From contig JAFSGW010000043.1 in the NCBI GenBank assembly GCA_017440585.1, positions 1-45,076 of the forward strand: DNA of 45,076 nt, in the 5' to 3' direction. The DNA comes from Clostridia bacterium. GTDB taxonomy: Bacteria; Bacillota; Clostridia; UMGS1883. Made by a program: the position numbers and the translations under genes. Shown here in pieces: positions 11,435 through 19,887 of this stretch. Every line of letters begins with the position of its first letter. Within the stretch, counting starts at the first letter, position 1. The notes beneath the pieces were generated by a model. The model had not been told where the DNA came from, did no database searches, and saw only the letters and a program-made list of their open reading frames with translations.

Positions 11435-11567
11435 AGGTATTATTATACCATAAGTCCGAAGGAATTTATAGTATAATTGGCACATTGCCGTTTCCGAGTA
11501 CACGAGGAAAATTTCGGCAGTGCATAAAATCCTGCGGAGCATATAATAATCGTTTTCGATTATTATA
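11435..11567. other. Intergenic hairpins upstream of the DUF4364 gene
   Basis: Three structures: a palindrome GGTAT-TATT-ATACC at about 11437, whose minus strand also contains TATAAT and may hold the DUF4364 -10 box or an operator; a long imperfect hairpin at 11478-11525 (GCACaTTGCCG with CGGCAgTGC, inner TTTCC/GGAAA); and a perfect 11-bp AT-rich stem, TATAATAATCG, loop TTTT (11542-11567). The last lacks a U-tract. No reading frame supports a gene here. Confidence 0.5.
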
Positions 11568-11608: not shown

Positions 11609-11637
11609 TTGAAAAAAGTGCTACCGTTTGATACAAT
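11609..11637 (+). promoter_or_regulatory. Sigma-A promoter in front of a truncated reading frame and hairpin array
   Basis: -35 TTGAAA (11609-11614), 17-base spacer, -10 TACAAT (11632-11637). It drives transcription into the 18-codon frame at 11692 and the hairpin array beyond it. Confidence 0.65.
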
Positions 11638-11691
11638 AATTATCAGGAATTCAGTAAGGATATTGAAAATGGGCGAAAGAGAGGACAGACG

Positions 11692-11748
11692 ATGAAGATT
11701 TTTCGCAAAAAGGCAAAAACAATTATTTTAGCGGTAAGTAATTTGTAG
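11692..11748 (+). pseudogene. 18-codon reading frame, possibly a truncated secreted or membrane protein start
   Basis: ATG at 11692 has GAGAGG eight bases upstream and a promoter at 11609. The peptide MKIFRKKAKTIILAVSNL has the basic N-terminus and start of a hydrophobic core of a signal peptide or membrane anchor, and then stops, with the hairpin array beginning seven bases later. Either an insertion of the array truncated a former gene, or this is a short leader peptide. No downstream continuation was found. Confidence 0.4.
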
Positions 11749-11754
11749 TCTGGA

Positions 11755-11946
11755 ATTGATGCGAGAATATGCGGTCTGCGACCGCAATGAATTGCCTTCG
11801 GCATGAATTGAAATCAGAGATTTCATGAATTGAGCCTGACGGCTCATGAATTGCACCTTCGGTGCATCAAAAGGCAATTCAATTCATGGAGCGTAGCGAG
11901 AATTCATGGCTTTAGCCAATTCATGACAACAACGTTGTCAATTCAT
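11755..11946. repeat. Array of small hairpins separated by ATGAATTG / CAATTCAT words
   Basis: Perfect stem-loops follow one another: GCGGTC-TGC-GACCGC (11771-11785), TGCC-TTC-GGCA (11793-11803), GAAATC-AGA-GATTTC (11810-11824), GAGCC-TGAC-GGCTC (11832-11845), TGCACC-TTC-GGTGCA (11852-11866), a less regular GGAGCGTAGCGAG, TGGC-TTTA-GCCA (11907-11918) and TGACAAC-AAC-GTTGTCA (11924-11940). In the left half the separator is ATGAATTG (11787, 11803, 11825, 11846). In the right half it is the reverse complement form (A)ATTCAT. The whole can thus also fold as one large inverted repeat. Stem sequences differ while the separators are constant. Confidence 0.8.
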
Positions 11947-11950
11947 TAAA

Positions 11951-11993
11951 AAGATTGGCATCTGGATTATACAGTCTTTATATAAAGATTGTC
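11951..11993 (+). repeat. Leader repeat, copy A (upstream of the gene at 12020)
   Basis: By eye 33 of 40 bases match copy B at 13051-13090. The shared core is GATTATACAGTCTTTATA. TTGGCA followed after 17-18 bases by a TATA-rich hexamer makes a promoter possible. Part of the tail (ATATAAxGATTGTCGAA) recurs at about 12405-12421 before the second gene. Confidence 0.6.
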
Positions 11994-12019
11994 GAATAAT
12001 GTTGAAAGGAGGCGATAGT

Positions 12020-12391
12020 GTGAAAAAGCTTTTCAGAAAATTCAGAAAAGAAAAACGAGCAGTTCCACCAATGCCTGAATGGAACGAGATAATTGATATG
12101 CTTTATGACAAAAATCTTGATTTTGTAGATTCAACAGTAGAGAAAGTTATATATTCAAAGGATAAGTCAAAAAGATATGTCGTTTTAAAAAGTGATAAAG
12201 GTTTCTTTACATATCGTCTTGAGAGAATATATCAATTTGATGAAGAAGACTGGAGCTATAGACACAGCTTTGATTTAGCACCGGCATTTTGGCAGGAAGT
12301 CAATAATGGAACAAAGTCAATTTTTTCTACTTTGGAAGATGCTTTAAAGGAATTGGAGCACGAAGGAGAATATAAATTTTTTTGGTCCTGA
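12020..12391 (+). CDS. Hypothetical soluble protein, 123 residues
   Basis: The GTG at 12020 is chosen because AAAGGAGG lies seven bases upstream; the in-frame ATG at 11999 precedes this site. The N-terminus is strongly basic (VKKLFRKFRKEKR). The remainder is an acidic alpha/beta-looking domain (FFTYRLERIYQFDEEDW, FSTLEDALKELEHEGEYKFFW). There is no signal peptide or membrane helix. I do not recognise the family. The size and C-terminal pattern recall small immunity-like proteins, but this is a guess. Codon use is more AT-rich than in the flanking housekeeping genes, suggesting recent acquisition together with the next two genes. Confidence 0.6.
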   Translation: MKKLFRKFRKEKRAVPPMPEWNEIIDMLYDKNLDFVDSTVEKVIYSKDKSKRYVVLKSDKGFFTYRLERIYQFDEEDWSYRHSFDLAPAFWQEVNNGTKSIFSTLEDALKELEHEGEYKFFWS

Positions 12392-12446
12392 ATTGACAAA
12401 ATCATATAAGGATTGTCGAATTTTGACGGATAAAGAAGGAGAAGAC

Positions 12447-13004
12447 ATGAGTATTTTAACATCATTAGTAGTGATTTTTGTAATAATATCATTAGGATTC
12501 GTTATAATCAAAAAATTGCTTAGGAAATTGCAGGATAAAAGTATTAGAATTGGTCTAATAAGTGGCTTTGCAACGATAATAATTTATATTGCATTTTCCT
12601 ACAGTGTTAATGTGTTAACCAAAGGCGAATGTTTTATTACTTATTGGCAAACGCACGAGATTATAAATGGTATTTCGTTTGATGTATTAAAGGCTATAGG
12701 AATATGTCTTTCATCTTTTGTGCCTATAATTTTATGTAGGTATAAAAATGCTAAAGAAGTTTTTAAATATTTAATATCTGCATGTTTGACTTATGTATCG
12801 TTATATATGCTTATATGGGTGAGTATATACATAGTTGTTTTAATTAGTTTTGTCACAAAAGTAGACTTAAAATTCCCTTTGAACACATGGGATTCAATGT
12901 TTTTTGCTCTACTATATTTTCCTATTGGTAGTTTTGTGGGGGCTTTGATTTCGATAGTTATAAATTTAATTTTAAATATTTGCCCAAAGAAAAGAGTGTA
13001 CTAA
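12447..13004 (+). CDS. Hypothetical integral membrane protein, 185 residues
   Basis: ATG at 12447 has AGAAGGAG six bases upstream; a longer TTG start at 12393 has no such site. About five hydrophobic segments are visible: residues ~3-22, ~33-53, ~76-97, ~108-138 and ~150-178, with basic ends consistent with a cytoplasmic C-terminus (CPKKRVY). No family is recognised. It lies 55 bases after the previous gene in the same AT-rich patch. Confidence 0.6.
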   Translation: MSILTSLVVIFVIISLGFVIIKKLLRKLQDKSIRIGLISGFATIIIYIAFSYSVNVLTKGECFITYWQTHEIINGISFDVLKAIGICLSSFVPIILCRYKNAKEVFKYLISACLTYVSLYMLIWVSIYIVVLISFVTKVDLKFPLNTWDSMFFALLYFPIGSFVGALISIVINLILNICPKKRVY

Positions 13005-13050
13005 AACTATTTTGTTTTTTAGTCTTAACGAGATATAATCTACCACTAAC

Positions 13051-13093
13051 AAGACTGGCATCCAGATTATACAGTCTTTATAGTAAGGGTGTC
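13051..13093 (+). repeat. Leader repeat, copy B (upstream of the gene at 13116)
   Basis: Second copy of the leader described at 11951. CTGGCA is followed after 18 bases by TATAGT, again promoter-like, then GTGTC and the ribosome site AAAAGGAGGG. Confidence 0.6.
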
Positions 13094-13115
13094 AGAAAAC
13101 AAAAGGAGGGCTGAT

Positions 13116-13712
13116 ATGAAAAGAAAGATATCGTGGATTATACCATTAATTCTTCTTGCTGTTTCTTTAATTGTACTTTTCAGACCATACCATATGACTT
13201 TTGATAAATCGGTTTCAGAAACAAGAATTATTTTTGAATACGAGATTTTTGGTTGTGGGAGCCTTGTGCGCAAAGTTTTAGATGGTGGAGAAGAAATCAG
13301 TTCTTCTTTTGCCGAAGAATACCCGGATATTGCGGTAAATGAGGTTGTGTTTTCGGAAGAAAGTGATGAGCCAAGAAAGCATTTGGATTCGGAAAATTTT
13401 TTCAGCGGTTTGGCATATGAACTTACATATGTAGTAGAAGGAAATCCTGTGGGTGTTACACACGGTGCACCTGATTGTTGCGACCCGAACGGATTTGCAT
13501 ATAACGAAAATGTTGTGGAGTTTAAGGTTGATAGATGGTATGTATTATCATATCTGCCTTATTTGCTCTTTGGAAATATATTTGTAACGGAGTGCGCAGT
13601 TTTTATTATGTGGTTTTCGCTATGCTGGTTATTCTTAGTGTTGGTTTATCGGCTATATAAATTTGTACTAAACGCCATGACGGGAAATTTCATTAAAAGA
13701 GGATTGAATTAA
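13116..13712 (+). CDS. Hypothetical membrane-anchored protein with external domain, 198 residues
   Basis: ATG at 13116, AAAAGGAGGG six bases upstream. An N-terminal membrane anchor (~4-22) is followed by a ~110-residue acidic segment (EEISSSFAEEYPDI, THGAPDCCDPNGFAYNE with a Cys-Cys pair), then two hydrophobic helices near 140-155 and 160-183 and a basic end. The middle part probably lies outside. No family is recognised. It ends one base before radA, but radA codon use is unlike it, so any co-transcription is probably accidental. Confidence 0.6.
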   Translation: MKRKISWIIPLILLAVSLIVLFRPYHMTFDKSVSETRIIFEYEIFGCGSLVRKVLDGGEEISSSFAEEYPDIAVNEVVFSEESDEPRKHLDSENFFSGLAYELTYVVEGNPVGVTHGAPDCCDPNGFAYNENVVEFKVDRWYVLSYLPYLLFGNIFVTECAVFIMWFSLCWLFLVLVYRLYKFVLNAMTGNFIKRGLN

Positions 13713-16477: not shown

Positions 16478-17149
16478 ATGATTTTATATCATGGAAGTGA
16501 AAAAATAATAGAAGCACCTGAATTTGGAAAGGGCAATTTGCGTAATGACTACGGCAGGGGTTTTTATTGTACAGAAGATGAAGAACTGGCAAAGGAATGG
16601 GCTTGTTCAAATAACAATAATGGGTTTGCAAATAAATATGAATTTGATATGGATGGACTGAATGTTTTGTATCTGAATTCAGATAAATATATATTACTTA
16701 ACTGGCTTGCTGTGCTTACAAGAAATCGTACCTATTGGGAAAACAGTACCGTATCGGAAATGGCTAAAAAGTATCTGGCAGATAATTTTATGATTGATAC
16801 ATCTATGTATGATGTAATAATAGGATACAGAGCAGATGACTCGTACTTTTCATTTGCACAGGATTTTGTTTCCGGTGCGATTTCATATCGACAGCTTGGA
16901 GAAGCTATGAGGCTTGGAAAGCTTGGTGAACAAATTGTCCTTATGTCAGAAAAAGCATTTAAGAGAATTAAGTATATTTCAAACAGTCCTGCGGATGCTG
17001 CAATTTATTATAAAAAGAAAAAAGAACGCGATAGAATTGCACAAAAAGAGTATAGACAAGCAAAGGGTGAAAACATTTCAGCAGACGAATTGTTTATTGT
17101 AGATATTATAAGAGAAGGAATGAAACAAAATGATGAACGCTTACGATAA
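16478..17149 (+). CDS. DUF3990 protein, probable ADP-ribosyltransferase-type toxin
   Basis: 223 residues with GGAGG eight bases before the ATG. The N-terminus LYHGSEKIIEAPEFGKGN...DYGRGFYCTEDEELAKEWA is the DUF3990 hallmark. His5 and the GFY tyrosine (Tyr30) fit the H-Y part of the NAD-binding signature of diphtheria-toxin-like ADP-ribosyltransferases, and GEQIVLMSEKAF near 150 is the likely third motif. The C-terminus is a charged helix (YKKKKERDRIAQKEYRQAK). The fold assignment comes from family knowledge. The toxin role is inferred from position: first in a three-gene unit with an HTH protein overlapping its end by 20 bases, on a mobile element. The cellular target is unknown. Confidence 0.75.
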   Translation: MILYHGSEKIIEAPEFGKGNLRNDYGRGFYCTEDEELAKEWACSNNNNGFANKYEFDMDGLNVLYLNSDKYILLNWLAVLTRNRTYWENSTVSEMAKKYLADNFMIDTSMYDVIIGYRADDSYFSFAQDFVSGAISYRQLGEAMRLGKLGEQIVLMSEKAFKRIKYISNSPADAAIYYKKKKERDRIAQKEYRQAKGENISADELFIVDIIREGMKQNDERLR

Positions 17150-17768
17150 AGAATATTTGTATCATGCACAAAAGAATTTTGGGCACATGGTGGATTTTGC
17201 AGTAAATACTTGCGATTTTGATATAGATGAATTCTTTAATATGTTTCTTGCTTCAAATGTGTGTGTACAATTTGAAAATGGTAACCCTTCATATATTGCA
17301 GGAAGGACAGGCTGTGAACTTACAAGGTTAATTGTAAGTGAAATCAAAAATGAGGATATTGTGCACGATGATGCTATGTATCTTGATAAAAGCGAGGAAT
17401 ATTGGCTTGGATGGGCTCTTTGCTATTATATATGGCTGAGGAATTATAAGTTTAAATACGTATTGTCTGCTGTTGGTGCAGGTGAAATGATTGGAATGTA
17501 TGATACTATGCATGAGGCAGATATTTCAAAGTTTGTTGAAACTGTTGACGAAAAATTAACTGAGTTCTATACTCAGACTGCACTTACGAGAATTAGGACT
17601 GCCCATGGGATGTCTCAAACCGAACTTGCCGAAAGATCAGGTGTTAATGTAAGAGTTATCCAGAGCTACGAACAAAGGTTAAGAGATATAAATAAGGCTC
17701 AATTTTCTACAGTAGTTGCTTTAGCAAGAGCATTAGAATGTGAAGCAGAAGATTTGATGGATAAATAA
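17130..17768 (+). CDS. XRE-type HTH protein with N-terminal partner domain, probable antitoxin
   Basis: 212 residues (or 211 from the next ATG at 17133). The N-terminal ~145 residues form an uncharacterised alpha-helical domain (FDIDEFFNMFLASNV, EYWLGWALCYYIW). Residues ~150-212 are a Cro/C1-type helix-turn-helix (ALTRIRTAHGMSQTELAERS, VNVRVIQSYEQR, VVALARALECEAEDLMD). The gene overlaps DUF3990 by 20 bases, implying coupled translation. The likely role is to bind and neutralise DUF3990 through the N-terminal part and to repress the operon promoter through the HTH; this is inference from architecture. Confidence 0.78.
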   Translation: MMNAYDKEYLYHAQKNFGHMVDFAVNTCDFDIDEFFNMFLASNVCVQFENGNPSYIAGRTGCELTRLIVSEIKNEDIVHDDAMYLDKSEEYWLGWALCYYIWLRNYKFKYVLSAVGAGEMIGMYDTMHEADISKFVETVDEKLTEFYTQTALTRIRTAHGMSQTELAERSGVNVRVIQSYEQRLRDINKAQFSTVVALARALECEAEDLMDK

Positions 17769-17777
17769 GGTGAGAGC

Positions 17778-17996
17778 ATGAGTAAAGAAGGCAGATTTCT
17801 AATCTTTTGTATGGAAATATATAAAGCGGCAAAAGGCCTTACGGGTAGACAAGTTGCGGAATTATTTAGAAAATATGAATTATATGACTATATTGTTGGC
17901 TGTTACGGGGCTTTGCATACTACAGGAACAAACTATATAATAAATGATATAGATTTGTATATTGAAGCGAGACAAGATGGTTGTAAAGTCTTGTAG
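17778..17996 (+). CDS. DUF3791 protein, third component of the module
   Basis: 72 residues with AAGGTGAG before the ATG, 9 bases after the HTH gene. FLIFCMEIYKAAKGLTGRQVAELFRKYELYDYI and ALHTTGTNYIINDIDLYIEAR match DUF3791 over the whole length. As I recall, the family is often found next to DUF3990 in Clostridia. It is all-alpha and soluble. It could be a second antitoxin, an adaptor or a regulator; its function is not established. Confidence 0.78.
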   Translation: MSKEGRFLIFCMEIYKAAKGLTGRQVAELFRKYELYDYIVGCYGALHTTGTNYIINDIDLYIEARQDGCKVL

Positions 17997-18034
17997 CGAG
18001 AGCTGCAGCATTATCAAAATGTAGAACGTACGAC

Positions 18035-18070
18035 AAAAGAGAAGTTTGGACTCCAAACTTCTCTTTTGCT
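18035..18070 (+). terminator. Intrinsic terminator of the toxin-antitoxin-like operon
   Basis: A 15-bp perfect stem with a 3-base loop (18035-18049, 18053-18067) ends in TTTT. Confidence 0.85.
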
Positions 18071-18158
18071 ATATGTTCTATGTAATTAAATAATTTTAAA
18101 AATCCGGGCAATTTTGATGGTGTCATTCGTTAATATATTATAGAGAGGCGAAAAGTGG

Positions 18159-18389
18159 ATGACATATGTTGAATATGAATTTGTTAGTCGGCATAATAAT
18201 TAGCACAAGAAAATGATTTCGAGGGGCTGATTATATCAATTGCAAAACATTAAAATTTATACATGTTGATAAAAAGCCGGGATTACCAGATGGAGAAATC
18301 GAAAGAATTTTAATAGAATTAATAATTAATCATACATATCCGTTAAAAAAGAAGAAGCATTAAATGAATTTTTTGACATAAGAAGTTAG
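18159..18389 (+). pseudogene. Decayed reading frames between cargo and recombinase
   Basis: ATG at 18159 (GAGAGG upstream) gives 14 codons, MTYVEYEFVSRHNN, then stop. From about 18243 another frame reads KTLKFIHVDKKPGLPDG and onward to a stop at 18363. A one-base shift then continues as EEALNEFFDIRS to 18389. This looks like one small gene broken by stops and frameshifts. Family unknown. Confidence 0.35.
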
Positions 18390-18401
18390 TTGTGATATTT
18401 G
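18373..18401 (+). promoter_or_regulatory. Promoter of the serine recombinase
   Basis: -35 TTGACA (18373-18378), 17-base spacer, weak -10 TATTTG (18396-18401), nine bases before AAGGAGG. Confidence 0.5.
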
Positions 18402-18423
18402 TATTGGTGAAGGAGGTTGTAAA

Positions 18424-19887
18424 TTGAGATTAGTAGCATACTGCAGAGTATCTACTGATAAAGAAGAACAGTTAGAATCATTAGCAAACCAGCAGGAGTT
18501 TTTTGAAAAATTTGCTGCCAGAAACAATCATGAGCTTGTGAAAATTTATAGTGATGAAGGGATAAGCGGAAAACAAATGAAGAACAGAAAGGAATTTATG
18601 CAACTGATGGCAGATGCAAAGCAAGGTTTATTTGATATGGTAGTTGTAAAGGATATTTCCAGATTTGCACGTAACACAGTAGACTTTTTGGTTTCAATTC
18701 GTGAATTAAAAGCACTTAATATTGAAGTCCAATTCGTATCTATAAATCAAACCGTGTTAGGTAACAGCGAATTTGTTCTCACGATGTTTTCAGCTATCGC
18801 ACAGGAGGAAAGCGCGAATTTGTCAAGTCGTGTAAAATTTGGGAAAAAGATTAATGCAAAGCACGGCAAGGTGCCAAACCAGATATATGGATATGACAGG
18901 ATTGACAGGTTTACATTAAAAATAAACGAACAACAGGCTGAAGTCGTTCGTGGAATATTCCATATGTATGTGCATGAGGGTTTAGGGTCCAGGCGTATTG
19001 CAATTAATTTAACAGAAAGAGGAATAGCTACATTCAAAGGTGCAGAGAGATGGCTTCCAAAGACTGTCAGGCGTATGTTGATAAACCCTATATACAAAGG
19101 GATTTTGATTTCTAAAAAAACTGAAGGTGTAAATTTCTTGACGGGTGAAAGAAGAGTTCTTGATGATGTAAGTGAATTTACATTCAATAAGCCGGAGCTT
19201 GCAATCATAAGTGCTGAACTGTTTGATGAAGCACAAAGGATTATGGAATATAGGCAAGAGGTATACAAGAATGAAAATCCAAACAGCCGTGTGAGTACCC
19301 AATATCCGTTCAGCACATTGATTCAATGTGAGCATTGCGGTTATTCCTTTACAAGGCGGTTAGTAAAACTGAAAAAAGGTACTTTTGCAAGGTGGAAATG
19401 TGCAGGAAGAAATATTAACAACAGCAAGTTTTGCCCAAATAATACGGTTATTGATGAGGATGCATTGATTGATGAAATTCGCAAGTATCTGTATGATAAG
19501 ATATGCGATAAGGAGAGCTTTATAAAGAACTATGAAGCTTTAAGTCGTACATATTTAAAAAATGAAACCGGTACAAGCGAATTTGAGCAAGAAATTGAAA
19601 AACTTCAGAAATTAAAATTGAAGTACCGAGAAATGTACATTAATGAAGTTATTGATTTGACAGAATTAAAAAATGAAACTGAAAAAATAAACAAGCGGGT
19701 AGCATTGTTAAAATCACAGCTAATAGGTTTGCAGAGAATTACAGAACATTCACACATAACCGCAGAAGAAATATTCGAATACATAGGCGAGGTTCTGAAA
19801 GGCGATTATTCGAATGTTGCTTTGAAGAAAATTATCGACAAAATTTATGTCAATAATTCAGGTGAGGTTAAGATTGTGTGGAAATAA
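18424..19887 (+). CDS. Large serine recombinase (integrase/excisionase of the element)
   Basis: 487 residues from a TTG at 18424 with AAGGAGG seven bases upstream; no ATG fits. The N-terminal resolvase domain has catalytic Ser10 in CRVSTDKE, plus DEGISGK, VVKDISRFARN and FAIAQEES-type motifs (here SAIAQEESANLSS). The Recombinase domain is ~165-270 (NQIYGYDR, RRMLINPIYKGI). The zinc-ribbon has CEHCGYSF and later Cys in WKCAGR and KFCPN (~300-345). A coiled-coil follows at ~375-440. Such enzymes catalyse directional attB x attP integration through a 2-bp staggered cut; excision needs a directionality factor, and none is recognised here. The gene ends 27 bases from the inferred attR. Confidence 0.95.
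   Translation: MRLVAYCRVSTDKEEQLESLANQQEFFEKFAARNNHELVKIYSDEGISGKQMKNRKEFMQLMADAKQGLFDMVVVKDISRFARNTVDFLVSIRELKALNIEVQFVSINQTVLGNSEFVLTMFSAIAQEESANLSSRVKFGKKINAKHGKVPNQIYGYDRIDRFTLKINEQQAEVVRGIFHMYVHEGLGSRRIAINLTERGIATFKGAERWLPKTVRRMLINPIYKGILISKKTEGVNFLTGERRVLDDVSEFTFNKPELAIISAELFDEAQRIMEYRQEVYKNENPNSRVSTQYPFSTLIQCEHCGYSFTRRLVKLKKGTFARWKCAGRNINNSKFCPNNTVIDEDALIDEIRKYLYDKICDKESFIKNYEALSRTYLKNETGTSEFEQEIEKLQKLKLKYREMYINEVIDLTELKNETEKINKRVALLKSQLIGLQRITEHSHITAEEIFEYIGEVLKGDYSNVALKKIIDKIYVNNSGEVKIVWK

Follow-up and report, generated by a model that had tools for sequence, protein, structure and literature searches.

Mobile hairpin arrays with conserved structure and a cognate four-helix-bundle gene in Clostridia

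We describe a dispersed, structure-conserved and mobile array of small hairpins that is linked to a cognate four-helix-bundle (4HB) gene, one copy of which, a chain of roughly 165 bases, lies in a 45,076-nucleotide stretch of a Clostridia bacterium contig (JAFSGW010000043.1), the whole of which is hereafter called the window. In our reading, to which we assign a probability of roughly 0.6, the array serves as the structured part of a small mobile element with a single identifiable protein, a 4HB protein of the Avd/IVP type, and the copy in the window is most plausibly a solo array that lacks the gene and is non-autonomous. The arrays look like mobile genetic elements of an undescribed kind, where "undescribed" means that papers on such arrays were not found in an incomplete coverage of the literature.

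Array anatomy

The structure comprises a leading hairpin (H0) and seven mini-hairpins (H1-H7), and its features, together with those of its surroundings, are as follows (positions of the window; direct reading unless stated otherwise):

11770-11948: whole structure, leading hairpin plus seven mini-hairpins
11770..11786, plus strand: H0, leading hairpin TGCGGTC-TGC-GACCGCA, abutting the array
11785..11948, plus strand: core hairpin array AATGAATTG ... CAATTCATT with a 9-bp terminal inverted repeat and H1-H7 (model R1, 189 bits; alignment A1, 70 copies; covariation)
11787..11865, plus strand: left half, four ATGAATTG words and H1-H4
11787, 11803, 11825, 11846: starts of the ATGAATTG words
11794-11802, 11810-11824, 11832-11845, 11853-11865: H1, H2, H3 and H4
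11788..11798, plus strand: TGAATTGCCTT, first word plus H1 5' arm (exact 11-bp complement to the middle segment)
11871..11881, plus strand: middle segment AAGGCAATTCA, anti-H1 (complementarity)
11880..11946, plus strand: right half, inverted words CAATTCAT/GAATTCAT and H5-H7
11880, 11917, 11939: starts of CAATTCAT, with the variant GAATTCAT at 11900
11888-11900, 11908-11917, 11925-11939: H5 (G/A mismatches), H6 and H7
11944..11993, plus strand: post-array leader, GGCATCT, 17 bp, TATAAA, then TGTCGAA (repeated at 13044-13093)
11643..13680 (approximate ends), plus strand: segment of about 2.05 kb with the array and small ORFs (two same-genus genomes lack it at their DUF4364/radA site)

A preliminary description of this DNA had reported a chain of hairpins joined by an 8-bp word that inverts half-way, and direct reading bears this out, since the separators are ATGAATTG four times and then its reverse complement four times, one of these being the variant, with the orientation flipping at about 11870. 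The array start given there (11755) falls some 15 bases before H0, and the perfect pairing claimed for every stem holds for six of the seven, the exception being H5 (GGAGCGTAGCGAG; GGAGC...GCGAG), which forms two G-C pairs at most, with G/A mismatches on both sides; in other copies this position is a true stem (GTTGC...GCAAC). The stretch formed by the first word and the H1 5' arm has two possible partners, as it complements the H1 3' arm (through GCC) and also the middle segment. A GAGCGNAGCGA motif at H5 would be in keeping with a very stable mini-hairpin of DNA and occurs on the plus strand only; as just 8 of 35 other arrays have it, it was dropped as an argument.

The folding energy of the array lies below that of all 200 dinucleotide shuffles (z of -4.2 as RNA and -6.1 as DNA), and both strands beat their shuffles. 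Covariance model R1, built from 70 copies with the window copy among them, scores 189 bits at the array, its sole match within the window, and the terminal inverted repeat AATGAATTG/CAATTCATT is paired in 96.8% of cells over these 70 copies, as in MITEs. Rfam 15 gave no match up to E = 1 between 11400 and 13200. A CRISPR array, from which the structure had already been set apart, was rejected because the variable parts are paired stems conserved across copies and the words invert half-way.

Copies and stem covariation

About 80 array copies were gathered from metagenome-assembled genomes (MAGs) of Oscillospiraceae/Clostridia and from phages. The window's own genome holds further copies on contigs C97 and C18 and degenerate ones on C69, C6 and C103. 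Among the 98 relatives' genomes searched, the array was present in 14, with up to about 11 copies per genome and with the best full-length copies across families being 80-91% identical; among 391 genomes of the class, 33 carried it. Furthermore, it was found in 73 public genome stretches, nearly all of them MAGs named Clostridia or Oscillospiraceae and mostly from ruminant hindgut, and in one viral contig, while phage records and plasmid records gave no array match. These counts come from a sample made up mostly of MAGs and from an in-depth search mainly of one class, with absence calls bounded by genome completeness and several thresholds chosen after inspection.

Across the 70 aligned copies (A1), both sides had changed in 16 of 32 hairpin pairs, with 65 covarying cells observed against 9.3 in shuffles and at most 16 when the partners were slid. 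H4 switches from GCAC/GTGC to GTGC/GCAC, H3 from GAGCC/GGCTC to GCACC/GGTGC, and H5 from GTTGC/GCAAC to GATGC/GCATC. Judged from these aligned sequences, the array structure is under selection. The preliminary description had named a lack of other copies and of stem covariation as the sign of a chance or one-off structure, and both copies and covariation were found. It had also offered two folds, many small hairpins or one long nested structure; the first gains support from the covariation, and the second is possible but unproven, because cross-array pairing of the words, seen in 96-99.6% of cells, comes with zero double changes. Variants that keep pairing on one strand only (G-T versus A-C) number 40:17 in the separators and 16:18 in the hairpins, which is ambiguous as a test of strand.

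Linked four-helix-bundle gene and word families

At about nine array loci a 4HB gene, or a remnant of one, lies directly downstream in the same direction, and at none does it lie upstream. The array-linked protein belongs to PF05635/TIGR02436, the Avd-like "23S rRNA intervening sequence" family, with PF05635 above the family cut-off and TIGR02436 scores of 98-115 bits for the 4HB proteins of complete units; the window copy is without such a gene. Among proteins of solved structure, the nearest to it by sequence is 2rld, which has five chains and is uncharacterised. At three loci (G000:C103, G001:C52, and G002:C8) the gene sits between two array halves, and at another copy (L106) about 30 residues of it are left, as a decayed unit would show, while most solo copies have no adjoining 4HB gene. 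PF05635 was detected in 12 of 14 high-quality array-bearing genomes, and the two with no match (G025 and G053) indicate that the protein is unneeded for array persistence there. Weak PF05635 matches were also seen beside reverse transcriptases (G024:C9, 47839-49354; G009:C99, 5607-6971; G182:C19, 19023-20505); these are likely real Avd-reverse transcriptase pairs of diversity-generating retroelements (DGRs), distinct from the array-linked 4HB genes.

When PF05635 genes were examined regardless of ATGAATTG, arrays of the same anatomy appeared on other words, among them AGCTAAAT, ATGAAATA, ATTTCATC, TATATCGA, GCGATATA and ATGATATG. A word statistic of at least 4, a threshold picked after looking, was reached by 24 of 35 4HB loci versus 2 of 52 window ORFs, which are controls rather than a gene-matched set, and about one-third of the 4HB loci have no word array by this measure. 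The relation between the H1 arm, its H1 partner and the middle recurs 70-80 nt apart in several word families, with variants GCC/GGC, CGC/GCG, TCT/AGA with GACGGA, CTC/GAG and TCC/GGA; the automatic search caught part of these families and the others were read by eye.

Word and protein match. Identity between 4HB proteins averages 0.76 for same-word pairs and 0.52 for different-word pairs, a difference reached by none of 1000 label permutations; the AGCTAAAT word-protein pair occurs in four taxonomic families (f1, f12, f19, and f29), and at least three such pairs, all different, coexist in the window's genome. The protein-binding scaffold proposed in the preliminary description has thereby gained a candidate partner in the cognate 4HB gene; since linkage alone could yield the word-protein match, the binding itself is something that we infer.

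Evidence for mobility

A prophage (contig JAFWXR010000037) and a viral contig (IMGVR_UViG_3300029305_012123) have terminase, portal and major head genes in common, their aligned stretches being roughly 82-96% identical, and at several intergenic sites near these genes the array is present in one and absent in the other, which indicates that it is mobile. The array-less sites hold short runs of a different word type (AATTCGGAATGCGGAATTC) rather than a clean empty site, and neither a target duplication nor an excision product was seen in these phage comparisons. Moreover, one genome (G160) carries at two loci with unrelated flanks a 637-bp array-4HB stretch, running from the leader up to the ribosome-binding site of the following gene, whose two versions are 98% identical, so that array-plus-gene units move as wholes. 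Together with the dispersed copies and the covariation, the occupied and unoccupied phage sites directly support the mobile hairpin module that had been suggested at the outset.

In the window, the segment at 11643-13680 sits between the radA promoter and radA, and its absence from two same-genus genomes shows the array there to be part of a larger insertion; the promoter at 11609, from which the preliminary description suggested looking for a transcript, is part of a radA leader common to relatives and was rejected as the element's own. The three small ORFs inside the insertion (11999-13712) match no Pfam or NCBIfam family, and the whole 2.05-kb insertion was discarded as a single element because arrays occur elsewhere without its ORFs. 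On contig C18 of the window's genome an array lies upstream of a gene whose translation reads as topoisomerase-like, and two sister genomes hold at this site half-arrays of other words, after TATAAT and a hairpin.

Other repeats were observed nearby. One interspersed repeat, about 117 bp long (window 11442-11558) and missing from this site in G002 and G003, is flanked by the direct repeat ATTATTATA (11439 and 11559), has copies 78-89% identical elsewhere in those two genomes, and looks like a separate MITE-like element. Another high-copy repeat, of about 280 bp, stands beside the array at G000:C18 (L002, ~1730-2050) and has about 40 matches in the window's genome. A DUF3990 gene with a weak ADP-ribosyltransferase-like match, an HTH gene and a large serine recombinase follow one another at 16478-19887, which suggests that the window has a further mobile island. 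Simpler words (AATTCGGAATGCGGAATTC, AATGCAGAATGCAG, and AATGAGGAATTAGG) build short arrays at phage intergenic sites and also beside other four-helix-bundle genes (L129 at ~615, 9248 and 11491 in reverse-complement coordinates; L133; L137), and these may be less elaborate relatives of the hairpin arrays.

Mobility of this kind could also belong to a non-autonomous element of an ordinary transposase, either a MITE or a REP-type element served by a Y1/HUH enzyme, with the hairpins as recognition sites and the 4HB gene as a passenger. The 9-bp terminal inverted repeat, the hairpin ends and the relation of solo to complete copies do resemble MITE/REP biology, and Y1 transposases occur in 14 of 20 array-bearing genomes; yet Y1 is absent from 4 of the 14 high-quality carriers (G025, G077, G113, and G304), a target duplication was not seen at the phage sites, whose unoccupied versions carry other short repeats, the recurrent cargo is a 4HB gene with its own word in each lineage and no other gene, and seven covarying hairpins with inverted words are more than Y1 or DDE ends need. 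We hold this explanation to be unlikely, although it fares best among the alternatives.

Genomic placement and leader

Among 82 distinct copies, gene and array are co-directional for 57 of 62 upstream neighbours and 59 of 66 downstream ones, the downstream genes being unrelated to one another. The copies that were read lie beside protein genes or after tRNA terminators, and none lies inside a 23S rRNA gene, as a ribosomal intervening sequence (IVS) would. The left border coincides with the end of a hairpin (at least 6 bp) in 60 of 78 copies, compared with 3 of 78 for the right border and 1% of shuffled sequences; these left hairpins are terminators, hairpins that follow a TATAAT-like box, or hairpins near a stop codon. 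The H0 type of the window is also found in other genomes (L127 and L031), and copies inside one prophage carry the same H0 type (GATGATGAAAC...GTTTCATCAT), which implies that H0 travels with at least some copies and weakens the idea of H0 as a mere target hairpin.

Past the right end, the leaders at 11944-11993 and 13044-13093 (50 bp, 82% identical) each precede a small ORF and have in common GGCATC, 17 bp, a TATA-like box and then TGTCGAA or a close variant; 28 of 79 copies have GCATCY no more than 25 nt away, and similar leaders follow arrays in other genomes. The TGTCGAA of the leader resembles a Spo0A box.

Such placement would also suit a cis-acting RNA (an attenuator, stabiliser or switch) in leaders and intergenic regions, spread by recombination, with the two partners of the H1 arm forming the switch. 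The strong co-orientation with genes, a promoter-like TATAAT box within 30 nt before H0 in 33 of 79 copies, the two possible partners of the H1 5' arm in several word families and the stability of the alternative folds all speak for it. Against this stand the unrelated downstream genes, the presence or absence of the array in near-identical phages, the lack of an Rfam match and the many copies placed right after terminators or stop codons. A cis-RNA role may be true as a secondary effect; as the full explanation, we regard it as quite improbable.

Proposed element and remaining alternatives

The mobile-element reading is the one that we prefer. A full unit (some 640 bp for the word family AGCTAAAT) would run from H0 or a terminator through the left word-hairpin half, the middle, which is complementary to the first word plus the H1 arm, and the inverted right half, with the 4HB gene just downstream of the array or between the halves and with an 8-bp word peculiar to each 4HB lineage. 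The 4HB protein would bind folded arrays that carry its own family's word, with the transcribed strand as the most probable form, and the complex would be placed beside hairpins between co-directional genes. Solo arrays would have been moved in trans or would be deletion remnants.

More tentatively, and with the chances rather against it, these arrays may form a new class of element in which an element's own Avd-like 4HB protein recognises a word-marked folded array and places it beside hairpins in transcribed intergenic DNA without a conventional transposase or an element-borne reverse transcriptase, the choice of partner by the H1 arm switching between expressed and mobilised forms, and ribosomal IVSs and the Avd of DGRs supplying the protein's relatives. 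In this context, the 14 high-quality carriers include 10 with Y1, 4 with a reverse transcriptase and 12 with PF05635, none of the three being present in all.

A DGR-like element, retrohoming through RNA to DNA hairpins by means of an Avd-like protein and a reverse transcriptase acting in trans, would draw on the homology of PF05635 with Avd (PMC10053308), on the need of DGR homing for a structure-dependent hairpin just after the target (PMC3240598) and on the fact that the arrays abut hairpins diverse in sequence. It appears very unlikely, as RVT_1 is found in only 4 of the 14 high-quality carriers, none was found in the window's genome (a 93% complete MAG), and no template or variable repeats were seen. 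Chance or an assembly artefact can be set aside, as nearly all copies do come from MAGs but the assemblies are independent, the changes compensatory and the same locus recovered in separate genomes (L101 and L109; L011 and L013), the copies and covariation having already refuted it.

Genes for IVP/S23 four-helix bundles are widespread and have been without a clear function since their discovery in 23S rRNA intervening sequences; the cognate arrays give them a likely partner and a testable role in mobility. The arrays also account for one class of repeats dispersed between the genes of gut Clostridia and of their phages, and they bring ribosomal IVSs, the accessory proteins of DGRs and anonymous intergenic repeats together under a single question. 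If the arrays are bound word by word, they would make up a natural set of orthogonal protein-nucleic-acid pairs.

Comparison with known systems

We file the arrays in none of the IVS, DGR and Y1 families, and treat their likenesses to IVSs and DGRs as analogies. REP/BIME, BOX, ERIC, Correia and other MITE-like repeats are interspersed, intergenic, palindromic and non-coding, as the arrays are; the arrays differ from them in their seven covarying hairpins, near-invariant joints and cognate 4HB gene, and from REP-type elements also in that no Y1 transposase was found in several carriers.

With the 23S rRNA IVSs of Coxiella and Leptospira the arrays have in common the protein family (PF05635/TIGR02436), the format of a short, selfish-looking element and structured inverted ends. 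IVSs replace hairpin loops, and a mobility role for their ORF has been proposed before (PMC4990558). However, an IVS lies inside rRNA and forms one long stem, whereas the array copies that were read are found between protein-coding genes or behind tRNA terminators and consist of word-spaced hairpins, with many solo copies and with the gene outside the array or between its halves.

In DGRs, Avd is a homologous four-helix bundle (PMC10053308), and the hairpin that homing requires beside the target acts more through its structure than through its sequence (PMC3240598). Unlike DGRs, the arrays have no template or variable repeats, and most array-bearing genomes, the window's own included, are without a detected reverse transcriptase. 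Finally, organellar double-hairpin and repetitive hairpin elements are likewise short, mobile-looking intergenic repeats, some of them without target duplications (PMC2800124); these have two to three hairpins and no cognate gene, whereas the arrays combine seven hairpins and inverted words with a linked protein, in bacterial chromosomes and phages.
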